Below, piece after piece: positions 31,965 through 39,560 of a stretch of 55,751 nucleotides of DNA. Under the pieces are notes generated by a model, which worked only from the letters and a program-made list of their open reading frames with translations, did not search any database and was not told the DNA's origin. The stretch is from a candidate division WOR-1 bacterium RIFCSPLOWO2_02_FULL_46_20 (lineage in GTDB: Bacteria > Margulisbacteria > WOR-1 > O2-12-FULL-45-9): assembly GCA_001771365.1 (NCBI GenBank), contig METP01000046.1:1-55751 (forward strand), read 5' to 3'. The position numbers and the translations under genes are program-made. The number at the start of each line of letters is the position of its first letter. Position 1 is the first letter of the stretch.

Positions 31965-33059
31965 GTGAGCTGGACCAAAGACGACGTTGTCTTTATGCGC
32001 AAAGCACACTCCCTGGCCAAACTGGCCGAGGGGCGAACCACTCCCGATCCTATGGTGGGGGCGGTTCTGGTTAAAGGGGGTAAGATAATTTCCATGGGTT
32101 ACCATGGAGAAGTTGCCACTCCGCATGCTGAGGCCTGGGCCATCCAGAAAATAGGCAAAAAGGCTGAAGGTTCAACTCTTTATCTTAATCTTGAACCATG
32201 TTCGCATTATGGCAACAACCCTCCCTGTGCCGGCCTGGTTGCCAGCTCCGGCATAAAAGAGGTCGTTGCTTCTATGAAAGATCCCAACCCTTTAGTCGAT
32301 GGGCAAGGTTTTAAGTTGTTGCGAAAACATGGGGTCAAAGTAAGGGTAGGGCTGTTAGAAAAAGAAGCTGAGCGGCTAAATGAAGTATTTGTCAAATATG
32401 TGACAACCAAACGACCTTTTGTGGTTATGAAAACTGCCATGACGATTGATGGAAAAATTGCCACGAGAACGGGCGTCAGCCGTTGGGTGGCGGGTCCAGA
32501 ATCTTTGAATTTTGCTCATCATCTGCGCAATGTTTATGACGCGATTCTGGTTGGCATTAACAATGTTTTGATTGACGATCCCAGATTAACCACGCGGTTG
32601 GTTAAAAAAATTAAAAATCCTATCCGCATTGTCCTTGATGCTTACGCCAGAACACCTTTAAATGCCGCACTCTTAGGCAAAGAGGCACGTACTATTATAG
32701 TAGTGGGGCCTAACGCCCCGAACAAAAGGCTTGAGGCTTTGAAGGCTAGGGGCGTGGAAATATTAAGGATTAGAGCGCCAAAGGGGTTGGTTGATTTAGG
32801 AGATTTAATGATAAAACTTGGCGAAATGAAGATTACCAGCTTATTGGTTGAGGGAGGGGGAGAGGTTAATGCTTCTTTCTTAGAACAAAATTTAGTTGAT
32901 AAAGTTCATTTTATTATTGCGCCGAAAATTTTTGGTGGCAGGGATGCGAAAACAGGGGTTGAGGGCTTAGGTGTTAGAGTCCCAAGCCAGGCAAAATGGT
33001 TGAAAGATGTTCAAATTGATAACTTGGGGAAAGACCTGCTTCTAACTGCCTATTTGTAA
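31965..33059 (+). CDS. ribD: bifunctional riboflavin biosynthesis deaminase/reductase RibD
   Basis: PDPMVGAVLVKGGKII; TPHAEAWAI; LEPCSHYGNNPPC; reductase domain MTIDGKIAT. GTG start. Confidence 0.95.
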   Translation: MSWTKDDVVFMRKAHSLAKLAEGRTTPDPMVGAVLVKGGKIISMGYHGEVATPHAEAWAIQKIGKKAEGSTLYLNLEPCSHYGNNPPCAGLVASSGIKEVVASMKDPNPLVDGQGFKLLRKHGVKVRVGLLEKEAERLNEVFVKYVTTKRPFVVMKTAMTIDGKIATRTGVSRWVAGPESLNFAHHLRNVYDAILVGINNVLIDDPRLTTRLVKKIKNPIRIVLDAYARTPLNAALLGKEARTIIVVGPNAPNKRLEALKARGVEILRIRAPKGLVDLGDLMIKLGEMKITSLLVEGGGEVNASFLEQNLVDKVHFIIAPKIFGGRDAKTGVEGLGVRVPSQAKWLKDVQIDNLGKDLLLTAYL

Positions 33060-33416
33060 CGCCTCATTGATAACTTCGAGGGCGTCTTCTACAACAAATG
33101 GTTTGTTGATAATTCCGTCAACCTTGTATTCTTCGCCAACAACCTTGATGACATCCTCATTCATGCCAGTGACAAAAATAACAGGAGGCAGCTTATATTT
33201 GGATTTAATTTTTTTCAAAAACTCAAAACCGTCGAGCTTTGGCATGTTAACATCTGCCAGAATGAGATTAAAAGAGTTGGGGTCTTGAATGAAAACATTA
33301 AAACCTTCTTCGCCGTTTAGTGCAGTGCTGACTTCAAACCCCTTATTCCTCAACATTTGAGCAACAATGTTGAGCATACTCTCCTGGTCATCAATCACTA
33401 AAATGCGTTTAGCCAT
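33042..33416 (-). CDS. single-domain response regulator (CheY-like)
   Basis: RILVIDDQESML; ILADVNMPKLDGFEFL; VTGMNED; NKPF. Confidence 0.92.
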   Translation of the reverse strand: MAKRILVIDDQESMLNIVAQMLRNKGFEVSTALNGEEGFNVFIQDPNSFNLILADVNMPKLDGFEFLKKIKSKYKLPPVIFVTGMNEDVIKVVGEEYKVDGIINKPFVVEDALEVINEALQIGS

Positions 33417-33433
33417 ATAAACACATTCTACGG

Positions 33434-34753
33434 CTAAGGCAGGGGAGAGTCAAGGGAAACGCCTAAATCTGTAGGAGCACGGCCCATCCCTCTTAGGATG
33501 GACAAAGTGGTGTTGATTTGTTTTTGTATGCTTTCCTGGTTGTGAGCACGATTCGGGTAAATTGAATAGTTTTTGCTAAATTGGTGTGGAGTAACGTTTA
33601 ACATTACGGAATTGGTGCCGGCCATCAAGCCTTCTTCGCGTGCTTTTGGGTGAAGTGTTTCAAATCCAGTGGTAACCAGGATTTTTGCGTTAATCGGGTC
33701 AAATAAACGAGCTATGGCAAGAGTTTTTAAGACATCTTTAACTTCCGGATGAGGGCTTTTTGCTAAAGGGGTGCCTGGGTGAGGTAAAAACGGGCCAAAA
33801 GTATACATCTCTGTGTGTAATTTTTTAGCCAATAGAAGATCGTTTAATATGTCCCGCCTGGTTTGGCCTGGCAGGCCAATCAATCCACCGGTAATGATCA
33901 AATAGCCAAGCCTAAATGCTTCTTCCAGGTGTTTGATTCTGGAATCAAGAGTGCGGCCAGGATGGATTTGCCGATAAATTTTCTGGTTACTGGTTTCAAA
34001 CCGCATTAATAAACCCCTGGCTCCGGCTTGATAGAGTTTTTTTAGGCCAGCCAGGCCAACTTCCCCGCAACTAATGAAAATTAAGACAGACCAACGCTCT
34101 TTTATGGTTTTGACAATCTCACAAAGCGTCTCAGCTGAATACGTCGAGTCTTCCCCGCTTTGTAAAACCAGGGTTTGAAAGCCGTATTTCTCAATGGCTT
34201 GCTTGGCTGCGTCATAAATTTCTTCTTCAGTCATACGATAGCGCTTAATTTCTTTGTTGCTTGCCGCAATACCGCAATATTGGCAGTTTTGTGAGCAATA
34301 ATTAGAGAATTCAATGATGCCATGAACGCAACAGGAATTGCTCAGATGCTTTTGACGCAGGAAATTGGCGGTTTTAAACAGAAGCGCCAGCTCTTTTTTA
34401 TCCTCAAGGTCTAAAAGATAAAGAAGGTCAGCTTCTTTTAATAGCATGTTTTCCAAAGCTTTGTCCAGAATAAAACTTAGTTTTTTATTGACGCCATATT
34501 TTTCCATGCCCACGCGAGATAAGCGTAAATCCAATTCTTGTAGTTCAAAAAAAGTTTCTTTCCAGACGGTCAGGATGGAGAGAGCTTCTGCTTCGGGGAT
34601 CTTTTTGATAACAAAGCCGCCCTGGGCATAAATGTAGTCGCCAATTTTTAGGTCATCAAGCTCATTGATCGCGGTTTTTTGCTCGCCAAAGTATTCTATG
34701 GTGGCGATTCTATCTTTTATTTTTTTAACTTGTCCGGGTATGGTGTAACACAT
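33434..34753 (-). CDS. HypC/HupF - HydE-like radical SAM fusion protein
   Basis: N-term MCYTIPGQVKKI (HypC signature with Cys2); C-term EFSNYCSQNCQYCG (CxxxCxxC), VLQSGED, GGLIGLPGQT, GPFLPHPGTPL as in HydE. ATG at 34753, two nt after the hypA stop. Confidence 0.9.
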   Translation of the reverse strand: MCYTIPGQVKKIKDRIATIEYFGEQKTAINELDDLKIGDYIYAQGGFVIKKIPEAEALSILTVWKETFFELQELDLRLSRVGMEKYGVNKKLSFILDKALENMLLKEADLLYLLDLEDKKELALLFKTANFLRQKHLSNSCCVHGIIEFSNYCSQNCQYCGIAASNKEIKRYRMTEEEIYDAAKQAIEKYGFQTLVLQSGEDSTYSAETLCEIVKTIKERWSVLIFISCGEVGLAGLKKLYQAGARGLLMRFETSNQKIYRQIHPGRTLDSRIKHLEEAFRLGYLIITGGLIGLPGQTRRDILNDLLLAKKLHTEMYTFGPFLPHPGTPLAKSPHPEVKDVLKTLAIARLFDPINAKILVTTGFETLHPKAREEGLMAGTNSVMLNVTPHQFSKNYSIYPNRAHNQESIQKQINTTLSILRGMGRAPTDLGVSLDSPLP

Positions 34754-34755
34754 TG

Positions 34756-34998
34756 TTATTCGCAATCAAATGAAACTAATCTTATCTCCCTTGTCTGGCT
34801 TGGTTCAATTGTAACCTCAGCACCTTCGGCAATTGTGCCCTTTGAGTGTTCGGCAATATAATGGCGCAGTATTTCTTCGTTGATTTCTGTAAACGTGCCC
34901 ATTCTCAAATAAATTTTGCAGATCTTTTTTGCTTCTTGCTGTTTCGCGTGTTTAAACAGGTCAGCTATTAGGTTTTTTATTAAGTGCATCTCATGCAT
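34756..34998 (-). CDS. hypA: HypA/HybF-like nickel insertion protein lacking the zinc-binding module
   Basis: MHEMHLIKNLIADLF; IYLRMGTFTEIN; GTIAEGAEVTIEPSQ-TREIRLVSFDCE; no CxxC pairs. SD gggaggc before ATG 34998. Confidence 0.85.
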   Translation of the reverse strand: MHEMHLIKNLIADLFKHAKQQEAKKICKIYLRMGTFTEINEEILRHYIAEHSKGTIAEGAEVTIEPSQTREIRLVSFDCE

Positions 34999-35057: not shown

Positions 35058-35516
35058 CTATCTTTCCAAGATTGTACTGGTGATTTCATCCACAATTTTT
35101 TTAACCTCCGGGCTTAAGCCCTCTCCCCAACCAACATTTTTTGGTTGTACGCCCAGAAAATATACCGTAGCTTTGGTGTCTTCCTCAATGACCCTGGCAA
35201 TTATTTTTAAAGGGAAGGCGTGGGTGCTCAAGGTTGTGTCCGGGATGTGTTCGTTGGGTATTATCCGCGTTGCCCCAGCCTCCCCTCCAAAATCAGCCGC
35301 GTCAATAATTACCACTTTCTTTGGTTTTTTTGAAACCGCTTCTTCAATAATATTTTCCGGTTTGTTGCCCGCATTAATAATTGGACATTGGATATTGGAA
35401 ATTCGACATTTCTTAAAGATGTGGGGACCAAGTCCGTCGTCAGAGCGCAAATCGTTGCCAACTGTGATTATTAATTCAGCGGTTTGGAGTAAATTTTTAA
35501 GGTCAGCGGTTAACAA
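35058..35516 (-). CDS. [NiFe] hydrogenase maturation protease (HycI/HoxW family)
   Basis: IITVGNDLRSDDGLGPHI; VVIIDAADFGGEAG; STHAFPL. Confidence 0.9.
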   Translation of the reverse strand: MLTADLKNLLQTAELIITVGNDLRSDDGLGPHIFKKCRISNIQCPIINAGNKPENIIEEAVSKKPKKVVIIDAADFGGEAGATRIIPNEHIPDTTLSTHAFPLKIIARVIEEDTKATVYFLGVQPKNVGWGEGLSPEVKKIVDEITSTILER

Positions 35517-36813
35517 ACTTCACGTCCAGGAAGTGAGCCGAGCAGGAGAGGCATGGGTCGTAGGCCCGAATTAACATTTCCAGGGCCAACGTGATCTCTT
35601 CGTCTGTTTTGTTAAGGATTTCCGGCACGAGCTTTTTCATGTCGTGTTCCATATTGTTAATGTTTTGGCCGGTTGGAATAATACAATTGGCTTTTGCTAT
35701 GATCCCCTTGTCGTCAACCTCATAATTGTGGTAAAGAATCCCGCGGGGGACCTCAACCGCGCCAACGCCAGAGCCGGCTTTGACCGGGATCATTTTGTTT
35801 TCGTTGAGGCCGACTACAATCGCTTCGTCATGATTAATGCCTGTTTGTTTAAGTGTCTCAATAATAGCGATTGAATCTTCGAGAGAGTGGATACATTCAA
35901 TTAATTGAGCCGCGGTGTTTAAGTATGGATTAATACACTTTGGCTTGAGGCCGATAGCTTGAGCCGCTGCTTTGGCTTTGGGATGAAGCTTGTCAGCATT
36001 CAAGTTAAATCTGGCCAGGGCGCCTACGGCAAAAGAATCGCGGCTTAATTTACAATGTTTGGCGCTTGAATGCGGGACAACAAATTCGTTGGTCAGTACT
36101 TTATATTCTTTCTTGTTTTTTCTTATTCCATCAGTTGAGCCGACATCTCCCATTAACATCGGGTATTCATTGTTGTCGCTGACCAGGGCAACATACTCGG
36201 TGTCTCTTGCAAAAGCTGGAAATTTTAAGGTTGCAGCCAGCCCAACAGTAGCGTCCATGTCTGGCTTCAGGCCGTTTAACAGGTGAAGCATGTCGTCCAG
36301 GGCTTTTTCTGTCGGTAATTTTGTGAATCCACCGACAATTGATGAAATAGGATGCACATGTCGCCCAACCAAAACGTCACAAACATCGTTGCAAGTCTTT
36401 TTCATGCGCAGAGCGCGGCGCACGACCGTATTATGGCTGTTAATTAAGGGGACAAAGCTTTTTACCCCGAGTAAATCAGGGGCAACCAGGAGATAGATGT
36501 GTAGGATGTGGCTGTCCAGGTTCTCCAGATGGAGCAAGAGCTTTCTTAATTTTATTGTTTGCTCTGATGGAATAAATCCAATCGCATCTTCAGCCGCCTG
36601 GATCGAGGCCAGGGTGTGGCCGCAGGCGCAGATCCCGCAGATCCTTGAAGTAATGTGCTGTGCCTCAAAGATTGATCTTCCTTGGAGCATCCCTTCAAAA
36701 AAACGAGGAGCTTCGACAATTTGTAGCTGGCAGGTTTCTAATTTGCCTTCTTTAACATTAACAACGATATTGCCATGCCCTTCAACTCTGGTTAAATATT
36801 CTACATTGACCAT
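35503..36813 (-). CDS. [NiFe] hydrogenase large (alpha) subunit, group 3b-like
   Basis: L1 motif RICGICACGH; C-terminal L2 DPCLSCSAH followed by FLDVKFVNR, a probable cleaved peptide. Confidence 0.95.
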   Translation of the reverse strand: MVNVEYLTRVEGHGNIVVNVKEGKLETCQLQIVEAPRFFEGMLQGRSIFEAQHITSRICGICACGHTLASIQAAEDAIGFIPSEQTIKLRKLLLHLENLDSHILHIYLLVAPDLLGVKSFVPLINSHNTVVRRALRMKKTCNDVCDVLVGRHVHPISSIVGGFTKLPTEKALDDMLHLLNGLKPDMDATVGLAATLKFPAFARDTEYVALVSDNNEYPMLMGDVGSTDGIRKNKKEYKVLTNEFVVPHSSAKHCKLSRDSFAVGALARFNLNADKLHPKAKAAAQAIGLKPKCINPYLNTAAQLIECIHSLEDSIAIIETLKQTGINHDEAIVVGLNENKMIPVKAGSGVGAVEVPRGILYHNYEVDDKGIIAKANCIIPTGQNINNMEHDMKKLVPEILNKTDEEITLALEMLIRAYDPCLSCSAHFLDVKFVNR

Positions 36814-36823
36814 TACGTTTCTT

Positions 36824-37573
36824 TTACTCACGATTATCATTCTCCCCACATTTATTGTACATATTCATTTTATTGGCAATTAAGTCAACGGAGAGACTGT
36901 ATTTTTCTAGAATATCCTTGGCCCCTTTGGTGTTGGGGTTGGAGACCAGGCCACGGCAACCATAGCAAATGTTGCCGTGGTTTATGCACCAGGAGTTGCA
37001 GCCGGCCCGGGTGATTGGTCCCAAGCAGGCCACCCCCCGCTCATACAGGCAGATGTTTTCATTTAACTTACACTCAACGCAAACCGCATTGTCTGGCACG
37101 GGGCGGGGGAGCCCGGCTAAAAAGGCCTTTAAGACCGCAACAACTTCCGGTAAATACACAGGGCAGCCGGGGATAACATAATCAACTTTAACCACTTGAT
37201 GGATGGCTTTTGTTTCTACGGTAGGGAAGAAATTGGCATCTTTACCGTAAACACTTTTGCGGATATCTTCCAGTTTATAATTATTTTTCATACCGTTAAC
37301 TCCGCCAATGGCGGCGCATGAGCCGTAAGCGACGAGGGTCTTTGTGCGAGCTCTTAGTCTTTTAATATGTTCGATAGCCTGCGGGGTGGTAATGCTGCCC
37401 TCGACAAATACGACATCGAATTCGCCAACCCATTTTTCTGACATTACTTCGCGGAATTCAACAACATCAATAGCCCCCAGCACGTCCAGCAGCAATTCGC
37501 CCATATTGGCTATTTGCAGCTGACAGCCTTCACAGCAAGCAAAATCAAAAAAACTTACCTTTGGTTTATTCAT
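36824..37573 (-). CDS. [NiFe] hydrogenase small (delta) subunit
   Basis: ACCEGCQLQI; GSCAAIGG; GCPVYLPEV; Cys-rich C-terminal half. Confidence 0.93.
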   Translation of the reverse strand: MNKPKVSFFDFACCEGCQLQIANMGELLLDVLGAIDVVEFREVMSEKWVGEFDVVFVEGSITTPQAIEHIKRLRARTKTLVAYGSCAAIGGVNGMKNNYKLEDIRKSVYGKDANFFPTVETKAIHQVVKVDYVIPGCPVYLPEVVAVLKAFLAGLPRPVPDNAVCVECKLNENICLYERGVACLGPITRAGCNSWCINHGNICYGCRGLVSNPNTKGAKDILEKYSLSVDLIANKMNMYNKCGENDNRE

Positions 37574-37574
37574 T

Positions 37575-38402
37575 TTATATGGCCCCGCCTATGGCTTTGA
37601 CTTTTTCGTAAGTAAAGACCGGCCCGTCCTGGCAGCAGTAGGTGTTGCCAATCTGGCAATGGCCGCATTTACCCAAACCGCACTTCATGTGTCGCTCGAG
37701 TGAAATCAAAATTTGACGTTCGGGGATGTTTTTATCCAGGAGCTTCATAATAACGAATTTGTACATTATCGGCGGGCCAACTACTACCGCAAATGTCCGT
37801 TCCGAATCAAGCGTTACGCCAGGAATGAGCGAGGTGATCAGGCCGACGTTGCCCTTCCAGTCCGGATCGGCCTTATCAACCGTGCAATTGAAATTAACAT
37901 CCAGTCTTTCCTTCCAACCAGCTAACTCCTCGTGAAAGAGCATTTCTTTGGGGTTTCTGCAACCAAGTAAAATGTCGACCTTGCCAAAGTTTTTGCGGTT
38001 GCCTATTACAAAATTGATTAGCGAGCGCAGAGGGACAATGCCCAAACCGCCGGCGACAAAAAGAAGATCATTACCCTCTAAAATTCTGACCGGGAAGCCC
38101 TGACCAAAAGGGCCGCGGATGCCGACCTCGTCTCCGGCTTTCAATTTGTGCAGCGCTCCGGTTAATTTTCCGACCTTTCTGACAACCAGCTCAAAAGAAC
38201 CTTGTTTAGTAGGGGAAGAGGAGACAGAGAGAGGAGCTTCGCCAATACCTAAAAGAGAGACTTCTACAAATTGGCCCGGGGCATGGCTTAAGTCCTCTCC
38301 CGGCAGTGCAATTTCAAACATCTTTTCCATGGATGTCATCTGTTTAACGCTTAGTATCTTGCCTATTTTAATTTGGTAAGGCGATTTTGTATTCATATTC
38401 AA
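37575..38402 (-). CDS. hydrogenase gamma subunit, FAD/NAD(P)-binding oxidoreductase
   Basis: GIRGPFGQGFP; VAGGLGIVPLRSLI; C-terminal 2Fe-2S-type ERHMKCGLGKCGHCQIG..YCCQDGPVFTY. Confidence 0.92.
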   Translation of the reverse strand: MNMNTKSPYQIKIGKILSVKQMTSMEKMFEIALPGEDLSHAPGQFVEVSLLGIGEAPLSVSSSPTKQGSFELVVRKVGKLTGALHKLKAGDEVGIRGPFGQGFPVRILEGNDLLFVAGGLGIVPLRSLINFVIGNRKNFGKVDILLGCRNPKEMLFHEELAGWKERLDVNFNCTVDKADPDWKGNVGLITSLIPGVTLDSERTFAVVVGPPIMYKFVIMKLLDKNIPERQILISLERHMKCGLGKCGHCQIGNTYCCQDGPVFTYEKVKAIGGAI

Positions 38403-39493
38403 AATGTTGCCGGCTTTTCGGCAATGGTACTTTGGCGGCCGGCGTTTGGGTTCTCCATCCCCTGTTCTTTAATTAAACTTACCAGGGTTTCTTTTAAATC
38501 TATTTTGGCCATACAGGCTCTGCTACAACGGCCGCAACCTGTGCAGAAAAACCGGGAAAATTTTTCTATCGGAAACCTAAATTTTCGGTAATAGCGATGT
38601 CTTTGGCGAGCGCCGCGCTCTTTACGGAAGTTTTCTCCCCCGGCGACTTTGGCAAAGGTTTCATTTTGACACGAATCCCATTGGCGGTAGCGGCGGCCGG
38701 TTGTTAAATCAAGATTGGGTTCGTCGATAACATCAAAGCAATAGCAGCTTGGGCAGACATTGGTGCAATTGCCGCAAGCCACACATCTTTTGTCTAAATC
38801 AGCCCAAACTTTACTTTGATATGATTTGTCAAATAATTCGGGGATTTTTTCGTGTTCAATCGGGATCTCGTTTTTCTCAAAGATCTCTCTTTTTTTCTGC
38901 CGTAATCGTTCCAGGGCGGCCAGGTCGGCTTTAGCTGCCAGGCTGAAAAGGTGTGATCGTTCGATGATTTTCTCACCCGCAGGAGTATTGACATGGAGAA
39001 TAAATTTGTCTCCCAGATTGGTCATAAACAGGTCGTAACCTCCGTTGGGGGTATGGTTGTGAACTAATCTGCAGCTGGCGAATCTGTCACAATAAGCATT
39101 GCATTCATAGCCAATGATGGTGATAGCATTTTTGCGGGCAAGATAGTTTTGATCTTTTGGTTTTTCAGAAAAAACCATGTTTAGGCATTGGATGCCGGCT
39201 AAATCACAGGTATGGACACCAAAGAGCGCTACTTTTTCGTGTTCAACCACCGGATCCATGTTTTGGCCTTGGGTTGTGTCGTAGGTGGCCAGGGTTTCGC
39301 GTTGGGGCATAAAGTATTTTTTAGGTGGGAGGGTGGTGGGGATATAATTAAGCGTTGCCTGGATCCCATTCTTAATTTCGGTAAAAGCGTAATTATTTAA
39401 TCCTTGCGCAACCGGAGCAACCACTTTTTGCTCCCGAGCTAAAAAGCTGATAAGATCATTAAGCTGGTTTTTGTTAAGCAGGTTATATTGCAT
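38399..39493 (-). CDS. hydrogenase beta subunit, 4Fe-4S dicluster protein
   Basis: CVACGNCTNVCPSCYC and CTGCGRCSRACMAKIDLKE; start assigned to MQYNLL (39493) because upstream in-frame region is promoter/operator. Confidence 0.9.
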   Translation of the reverse strand: MQYNLLNKNQLNDLISFLAREQKVVAPVAQGLNNYAFTEIKNGIQATLNYIPTTLPPKKYFMPQRETLATYDTTQGQNMDPVVEHEKVALFGVHTCDLAGIQCLNMVFSEKPKDQNYLARKNAITIIGYECNAYCDRFASCRLVHNHTPNGGYDLFMTNLGDKFILHVNTPAGEKIIERSHLFSLAAKADLAALERLRQKKREIFEKNEIPIEHEKIPELFDKSYQSKVWADLDKRCVACGNCTNVCPSCYCFDVIDEPNLDLTTGRRYRQWDSCQNETFAKVAGGENFRKERGARQRHRYYRKFRFPIEKFSRFFCTGCGRCSRACMAKIDLKETLVSLIKEQGMENPNAGRQSTIAEKPATF

Positions 39494-39510
39494 GTCTTGT
39501 CCCAGTCGTA

Positions 39511-39528
39511 TTGTGAAAACATTCACAA
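39511..39528. promoter_or_regulatory. Rex-type operator TTGTGAA-AACA-TTCACAA
   Basis: Perfect 7-bp inverted repeat with 4-nt spacer matching TTGTGAANNNNTTCACAA; overlaps predicted TSS of the hydrogenase operon. Confidence 0.75.
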
Positions 39529-39531
39529 TAT

Positions 39532-39560
39532 ATGTTACCGTCAAAACCTTTTCGTGTCAA
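39532..39560 (-). promoter_or_regulatory. hydrogenase operon promoter (TTGACA-N17-TAACAT)
   Basis: -35 complement at 39555-39560, -10 complement at 39532-39537. Confidence 0.55.

Follow-up and report, generated by a model that had tools for sequence, protein, structure and literature searches.

A HypC–HydE fusion in [NiFe] hydrogenase operons, likely the center of a cofactor maturation pathway without HypD, HypE and HypF

The window, i.e., the whole stretch of 55,751 nucleotides analyzed here, carries on its minus strand a tight [NiFe] hydrogenase operon of the group-3b type, whose last gene encodes a HypC domain fused to a HydE-like radical SAM domain. The genes are spaced by overlaps or by gaps of a few nucleotides, and their order (FeS, FAD, small and large subunits, HycI, short HypA, fusion) bears out the position that the initial annotation had given to the fusion, after the [NiFe] structural genes, the protease and hypA. 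The features are listed below; residue counts refer to 79 sequences, because one of the 80 loci kept from the collection scan described further on (L178) is truncated where its contig stops.

33434–34753, minus strand: HypC–HydE fusion gene; a single ORF with both domains above the Pfam cut-offs and the HydE model above its own, conserved across 23 phylum genomes and the loci of the collection scan.
34529–34753, minus strand: HypC domain, residues 1–75, with the invariant Cys2 (PF01455 over residues 1–64; Cys2 in 79/79 fusions).
34622–34624, minus strand: Gln44, where HypC otherwise has a histidine (His51 in E. coli numbering); Gln in 79/79 fusions.
33473–34465, minus strand: HydE radical SAM domain, residues 97–427 (TIGR03956 over 97–408; T. 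maritima HydE aligned to 110–427; the model superposes on HydE at 1.4–1.6 Å).
34322–34333, minus strand: fusion-specific Cys141-Cys142-Val143-His144 on the first barrel strand (C141 in 78/79, C142 and H144 in 79/79).
34274–34297, minus strand: CX3CX2C motif of the radical SAM cluster, Cys153/Cys157/Cys160, invariant (79/79).
34756–34992, minus strand: short HypA of 78 residues that leaves the C-terminal end of the family profile unmatched (PF01155 at 39.4 bits, covering positions 3–68 of 112).
35058–35516, minus strand: HycI-type maturation protease (TIGR00142, 121.8 bits against a cut-off of 119.1).
35503–36849, minus strand: large subunit of the [NiFe] hydrogenase, resembling group 3b and carrying the motifs RICGIC and DPCLSC (PF00374 at 119.7 bits; the best-scoring models are those of sulfhydrogenases).
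36824–37573, minus strand: [NiFe] hydrogenase small subunit (PF01058, 91.5 bits).
37575–38402, minus strand: FAD/NAD(P)-binding subunit (PF00175, PF00970, PF10418).
38399–39544, minus strand: 4Fe-4S subunit (PF17179, 102.4 bits).

The fusion is one intact ORF of 439 amino acids plus the stop codon, with no internal stop or frameshift. The continuous frame claimed at the outset, with its HypC start MCYTIPGQVKKI and the kept Cys2, runs from 34753 down to 33434 as described, and every motif named for the HydE part (EFSNYCSQNCQYCG, VLQSGED, GLPGQT and GPFLPHPGTPL) is found in it. In Pfam, HupF_HypC (PF01455) reaches 47.1 bits against a cut-off of 28.5 over residues 1–64, Radical_SAM reaches 70.9 bits, and the BATS domain is matched as well. 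In NCBIfam, the HydE model TIGR03956 gives 254.8 bits against a cut-off of 254.6 (residues 97–408), far above PylB, BioB and HydG, and the model for stand-alone HypC, TIGR00074, stays below threshold (41.8 against 48). The closest solved relatives by sequence are the T. maritima HydE structures (E ∼1e-62), and the N-terminus corresponds to archaeal HypC: it aligns with the solved proteins 2z1c and 3vyr and begins with the Met-Cys of the HypC family. An HmdB-like or BioB-like enzyme was rejected on the profile scores. HmdB, which belongs to the cofactor pathway of [Fe]-hydrogenase, is likewise a HydE/BioB-related radical SAM protein, but it has a CX5CX2C motif and no HypC, and the fusion scores 97.5 bits against the HmdB cut-off of 320.9.

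Some side points concern the gene and its neighbors. The curated HydE cut-off is exceeded by only 0.2 bits (33437–34753, minus strand), a margin at which automatic annotation may label the fusion an [FeFe] maturase, thus implying an [FeFe] hydrogenase that is absent. The match of HypA stops at position 68 of the 112 in the profile, and the region that binds zinc in this family hence appears to be missing; similar short forms accompany many of the other fusions (clusters 6 and 23), and the group-4-like loci have longer HypA. Directly downstream of the fusion, at 33042–33416 on the minus strand, lies a response-regulator-like gene of 124 amino acids that recurs in a few close relatives (a cluster of 7 loci).

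How far does this architecture extend? Full-length fusions occur in 23 of the 74 genomes of the phylum, the window's own included, and the other 22 share 45–72% identity with the window protein. A scan of the GTDB species genomes returned 159 related loci, of which 80 were kept, all but one (79/80) being full-length fusions; outside the window's own record, identities again range from 45 to 72%. Because the same architecture (residues 1 to ∼432) recurs as a single ORF across the 23 phylum genomes and in this independent scan, chance is ruled out as its origin, together with the frameshift or misassembly against which the initial annotation had cautioned. Judged by record titles, the kept loci belong to Margulisbacteria/Saganbacteria, Omnitrophota, Elusimicrobia, Spirochaetota (Brevinematales) and Planctomycetota (Scalindua), and further ones to Atribacterota, WOR-3, Auribacterota, Deltaproteobacteria, Ozemobacteraceae and several DPANN archaea; overall, the 80 loci represent about a dozen phyla of bacteria and archaea. 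In a tree of the HydE domain, the fusions fall on one side of a branch with an SH-aLRT of 100, apart from canonical HydE, that of the same phylum included, and the simplest reading is a single origin followed by transfer between lineages. One record title looks misassigned: MFFY01000004 (L130), the public record that matches the window, is named Candidatus Falkowbacteria, and its nearest relatives by genome grouping, protein tree and gene neighborhood are WOR-1/Saganbacteria (Margulisbacteria).

The gene order is recurrent too, with the caveat that the neighborhood clusters were named by their motifs and by similarity of sequence, without the use of curated models. A large subunit adjoins the fusion in 49 of the 80 loci, many of the rest ending at contig edges, and the commonest order is that of the window, often continued just downstream by rex and/or hydG. 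The fusion also occurs in [NiFe] clusters of the membrane type (group 4-like), which have NuoL/NuoH-like genes and a longer HypA, and in Scalindua and the DPANN archaea hydG lies directly, or nearly directly, 3′ of it. Five loci (L196, L198, L199, L203 and L204) come from Scalindua, which are anammox planctomycetes, and from a related planctomycete; in them the fusion is followed by hydG, with neither HypD nor [FeFe] hydrogenase in the genomes searched. Enrichment cultures of Scalindua exist, and for this reason these may be the most accessible hosts.

What kind of active site would these operons serve? Neither of the CxxC motifs that bind the metals (RICGxC/DPCxxC-type) is lost from the large subunits encoded beside the fusion, but these motifs served to select them and their presence is hence no independent test. 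PRG occurs in nearly all, and the PRG and P-T positions, the cyanide contacts of known structures, are kept wherever they are readable; in the window protein, KANCIIPTGQN is nearly identical to the KANCVIPTGQN of a relative from a HypD-bearing genome. By their motifs the large subunits look ordinary, which argues for a standard Fe(CN)2CO site.

The fusion itself has departed from both of its parent families at defined positions. In the HypC part, Cys2 is invariant and Gln44 occupies the position where the stand-alone HypCs of HypD-bearing relatives, as well as solved HypC, have histidine. In E. coli this residue, His51, helps to hold the iron together with HypD (PMC12134894). In the HydE part, residues C63, C67, C70, Q107, S108, R159, E161 and R180 of T. 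maritima HydE are kept in essentially all fusions, and M224, T268, T269, M291, Y303 and Y306 are invariant or nearly so; the barrel residues, whose loss would have spoken against the first reading, are therefore retained across the 79 fusions. Two HydE hallmarks are replaced, Arg54 by His144 and the auxiliary-cluster cysteine (position 319) mainly by Gln. Fusion-specific changes fall at T. maritima positions 51, 52, 54, 272 and 289, and the counterparts of Cys141, Cys142 and His144 are V51, H52 and R54. AlphaFold2 on 54 fusions gave a pLDDT of 92.1 and a pTM of 0.91, and with Foldseek the HydE part of the model falls on T. maritima HydE, complex-B-bound forms included, at ∼1.4–1.6 Å. With a single residue between them on the first barrel strand, C142 and H144 should, from strand geometry, face the same side; these two are candidate iron ligands that may replace Cys41 of HypD and His51 of HypC. 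Together, Gln44, the CC-x-H motif and the kept Cys2 would fit a protein in which HypD has been replaced.

The genomes of the phylum give this idea its context. All 74 were searched for the fusion, HypD, HypE, HypF, HydF, HydG, and [FeFe] and [NiFe] hydrogenase, a co-occurrence test that the initial annotation had suggested in part as a check, with the following outcome: the 23 fusion genomes all have a [NiFe] large subunit; none has HypD, HypE or HypF above the curated cut-offs; 22 have a full HydG, and the 23rd (71% complete) a C-terminal fragment of it; and in 22 neither HydF nor [FeFe] hydrogenase was found. The sole fusion genome with both of the latter, G010, also carries a separate, canonical HydE. 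Conversely, the six HypD-bearing genomes of the phylum (G030–G035) are all without the fusion, and three genomes have a [NiFe] match with neither fusion nor HypD, two of them through weak matches (G047, G049) and the third being 69% complete (G057). HydG outside the fusion genomes occurs only alongside [FeFe] hydrogenase (10/10); among genomes without [FeFe] hydrogenase it is present in 21 of 22 with the fusion and in 0 of 36 without. Fisher tests that ignore phylogeny give p = 9e-5 for fusion versus HypD among [NiFe] genomes, p = 7e-15 for fusion with HydG among genomes without [FeFe] hydrogenase, and p = 3e-12 for fusion with [NiFe] hydrogenase.

Could the missing HypD, HypE and HypF merely reflect incomplete genomes? 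This was rejected. Fifteen of the fusion genomes are at least 90% complete, and one (G063, MEUD01000001) is a single contig of 1.67 Mb whose title calls it curated complete and on which the fusion, HydG and [NiFe] hydrogenase are present and HypD/E/F, HydF and [FeFe] hydrogenase are not; a naive estimate under independence puts the chance of one universal gene missing from all 23 genomes at about 10^-27. The window's own genome, 86% complete, has one HypC only, namely the fusion, and a complete [FeFe] H-cluster system, which might have given the fusion a conventional role, was not found in it. The earlier statement that the window lacks [FeFe] hydrogenase, HydF and HydG holds, but the genome has a full HydG elsewhere, at G000:C66:19029-20411 (L258:9952-11412). 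Away from the fusion, this hydG comes after a short, panD-like gene (judged by eye), and Rnf-like genes lie nearby on the opposite strand. The HydGs of the phylum, that of the window's genome included, have the canonical N-terminal CX3CX2C and C-terminal CX2CX22C motifs. In some Omnitrophota and Elusimicrobia, a fusion-adjacent HydG has a rearranged C-terminal motif, CTAGYRCGRTG in place of the usual CTACYRLGRTG (L139:3329-4822, L157:3170-4591, L177:4060-5523, L183:12076-13575, L186–L188 and L192), and with the cysteines so shifted the second HydG cluster may be bound differently.

In the other phyla, the survey covered HypD, HydG and [FeFe] hydrogenase (HypE, HypF and HydF were searched in the phylum only), and the 50 fusion genomes examined show the same tendency: HypD is absent from 48, and HydG is above cut-off in 46. 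The exceptions, two genomes with HypD and four without a full HydG, are draft MAGs. The two that combine fusion and HypD are Deltaproteobacteria, G107 (L189) and G094 (L172), and could represent a real double system or mixed bins. An [FeFe] hydrogenase is present in 21 of the 50, where HydG may serve that enzyme, and absent from 29.

Collectively, these data make it very likely that a functional pathway of [NiFe] cofactor maturation centers on the fusion and replaces HypD, HypE and HypF. The case is a genomic inference, built on the observed architecture, conservation, co-occurrence, gene order and residue changes. In the initial annotation, the fusion was a tether between radical chemistry and the [NiFe] iron-site scaffold, and perhaps an alternative maturation route; this interpretation gains support, and it is the second and stronger form of it that the genome-wide co-occurrence favors. 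A more specific version is also likely: in the dozen or so phyla, Fe(CN)2CO would derive from tyrosine via HydG and be processed and delivered by HypC–HydE, with no part played by HypD, HypE, HypF or HydF. In the [FeFe] system, tyrosine is the source from which HydG makes [Fe(Cys)(CN)(CO)2]; HydE receives this synthon from HydG, adds an adenosyl radical to it and reduces the iron (PMC12752695). In the scheme proposed here, HydG, a radical SAM enzyme, would convert tyrosine into CO and CN and build an Fe-CO/CN synthon on its second cluster, to be taken over by the HydE barrel of the fusion. SAM-dependent radical chemistry in the HydE part would then release the iron unit from its cysteine carrier, and the fused HypC would catch it through Cys2, probably aided by Cys142/Cys141 or His144, and place it in the apo large subunit. 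Nickel would be added by HypA, with a putative HypB, and HycI would close the site, so that HypD, HypE and HypF would be dispensable.

One point in this scheme is awkward. Since the known HydG product is Fe(CO)2(CN)(Cys) and the site to be built is Fe(CN)2CO, either a CO-to-CN exchange or a variant site with two COs would be needed, and, the large subunits looking ordinary, the extra exchange step counts against the pathway. The reaction steps, the source of the ligands and their number are what we infer, and the exact chemistry is less certain than the pathway itself.

Three other explanations have to be weighed. Perhaps HydG and the fusion give only CO, or an iron-CO unit, and cyanide comes from carbamoyl phosphate via HypE/HypF-like proteins too diverged to be recognized. 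Weak HypE-like matches of the AIR-synthase family, up to ∼100 bits, do exist in several fusion genomes, but they also appear in genomes without [NiFe] hydrogenase and in hydrogenase-free controls, as expected of purine-synthesis and related homologues. That the anaerobic source of CO is an open question for the canonical pathway (PMC12134894) also speaks for this explanation; against it, HypE and HypF above cut-off are found in none of the 23 phylum fusion genomes, HypD, the scaffold that receives cyanide from HypE, is gone as well, and HydG yields both ligands. We therefore regard this explanation as unlikely. The presence of HydG elsewhere in the genome corrects the initial annotation, which had suggested an anaerobic step for CO or the iron ligands: beyond CO alone, the route probably provides CN too.

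It is quite improbable that the fusion makes the cofactor by a radical chemistry of its own from some other substrate, or that it acts by modifying the large subunit, with HydG co-occurring for a different reason. The changes at T. maritima positions 51, 52, 54, 272 and 289 would allow a different substrate, and the four genomes of other phyla without a full HydG point the same way; on the other side stand the HydE cavity residues, which are kept, the frequent adjacency of hydG, and the nearly perfect tracking of the fusion by HydG where [FeFe] hydrogenase is absent (21/22 versus 0/36). Least credible is that the protein serves [FeFe] hydrogenase as an ordinary HydE and that its HypC extension is decorative: the NCBIfam name, just above cut-off, and the [FeFe] hydrogenases in 21 of the 50 genomes of other phyla speak for it, but the fusion genomes that lack [FeFe] hydrogenase, 22 of the 23 in the phylum being without HydF too, refute it as a general explanation, the one fusion genome of the phylum with [FeFe] hydrogenase has a separate canonical HydE, and the gene sits in [NiFe] operons with Cys2 invariant.

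How does a pathway centered on HypC–HydE compare with the known systems? With the HypCDEF pathway of E. coli, T. kodakarensis and C. necator it shares a HypC with the essential Cys2, the type of target large subunit, HypA and a HycI-type protease; it differs in the absence of HypD, HypE and HypF (23/23), in Gln44 for His51, in the fusion of HypC to a radical SAM enzyme and in the presence of HydG. With the HydE/HydG/HydF pathway it shares canonical HydG (in the phylum) and a HydE barrel with its SAM cluster and cavity residues, but HydF and [FeFe] hydrogenase are absent in 22 of 23 genomes and the target is a [NiFe] enzyme; relative to canonical HydE, the fusion carries HypC as well as the CC-x-H motif and lacks the auxiliary-cluster cysteine (position 319). 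HypX, which under oxygen provides CO derived from formyl-THF to [NiFe] hydrogenases, is likewise an enzyme devoted to the diatomic ligand of the [NiFe] iron, but of unrelated family and chemistry, and it acts beside HypC–F, not in place of HypDEF (PMC12134894). With defining features of both the Hyp and the HydEFG systems tested and found lacking, the pathway as a whole matches neither, although all its parts belong to known families.

The initial annotation had left room for the architecture being already characterized. In the published open-licence literature, no description was found of a HypC–HydE fusion or of [NiFe] maturation free of HypDEF. A paper on hydrogen metabolism in Saganbacteria does not mention maturation genes (PMC6349859), and a review that lists Hyp proteins A–F as needed for anaerobic synthesis of the [NiFe] cofactor, and describes the anaerobic CO source as unresolved, mentions neither HydE nor HydG (PMC12134894).

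If the proposal is true, many lineages that have not been cultured, from Margulisbacteria, Omnitrophota, Elusimicrobia, Brevinematales, Scalindua and DPANN archaea, would build the same kind of site from tyrosine by radical SAM chemistry. The maturation chemistries of [FeFe] and [NiFe] hydrogenases would be joined, with consequences for how the two pathways are related, and an anaerobic source of the CO ligand would be identified; the CO question would become directly testable in a minimal system of two maturases, which could also simplify the heterologous production of [NiFe] hydrogenases. Annotations of HydE and HydG alone would then be no proof of an [FeFe] hydrogenase in the organism that carries them.
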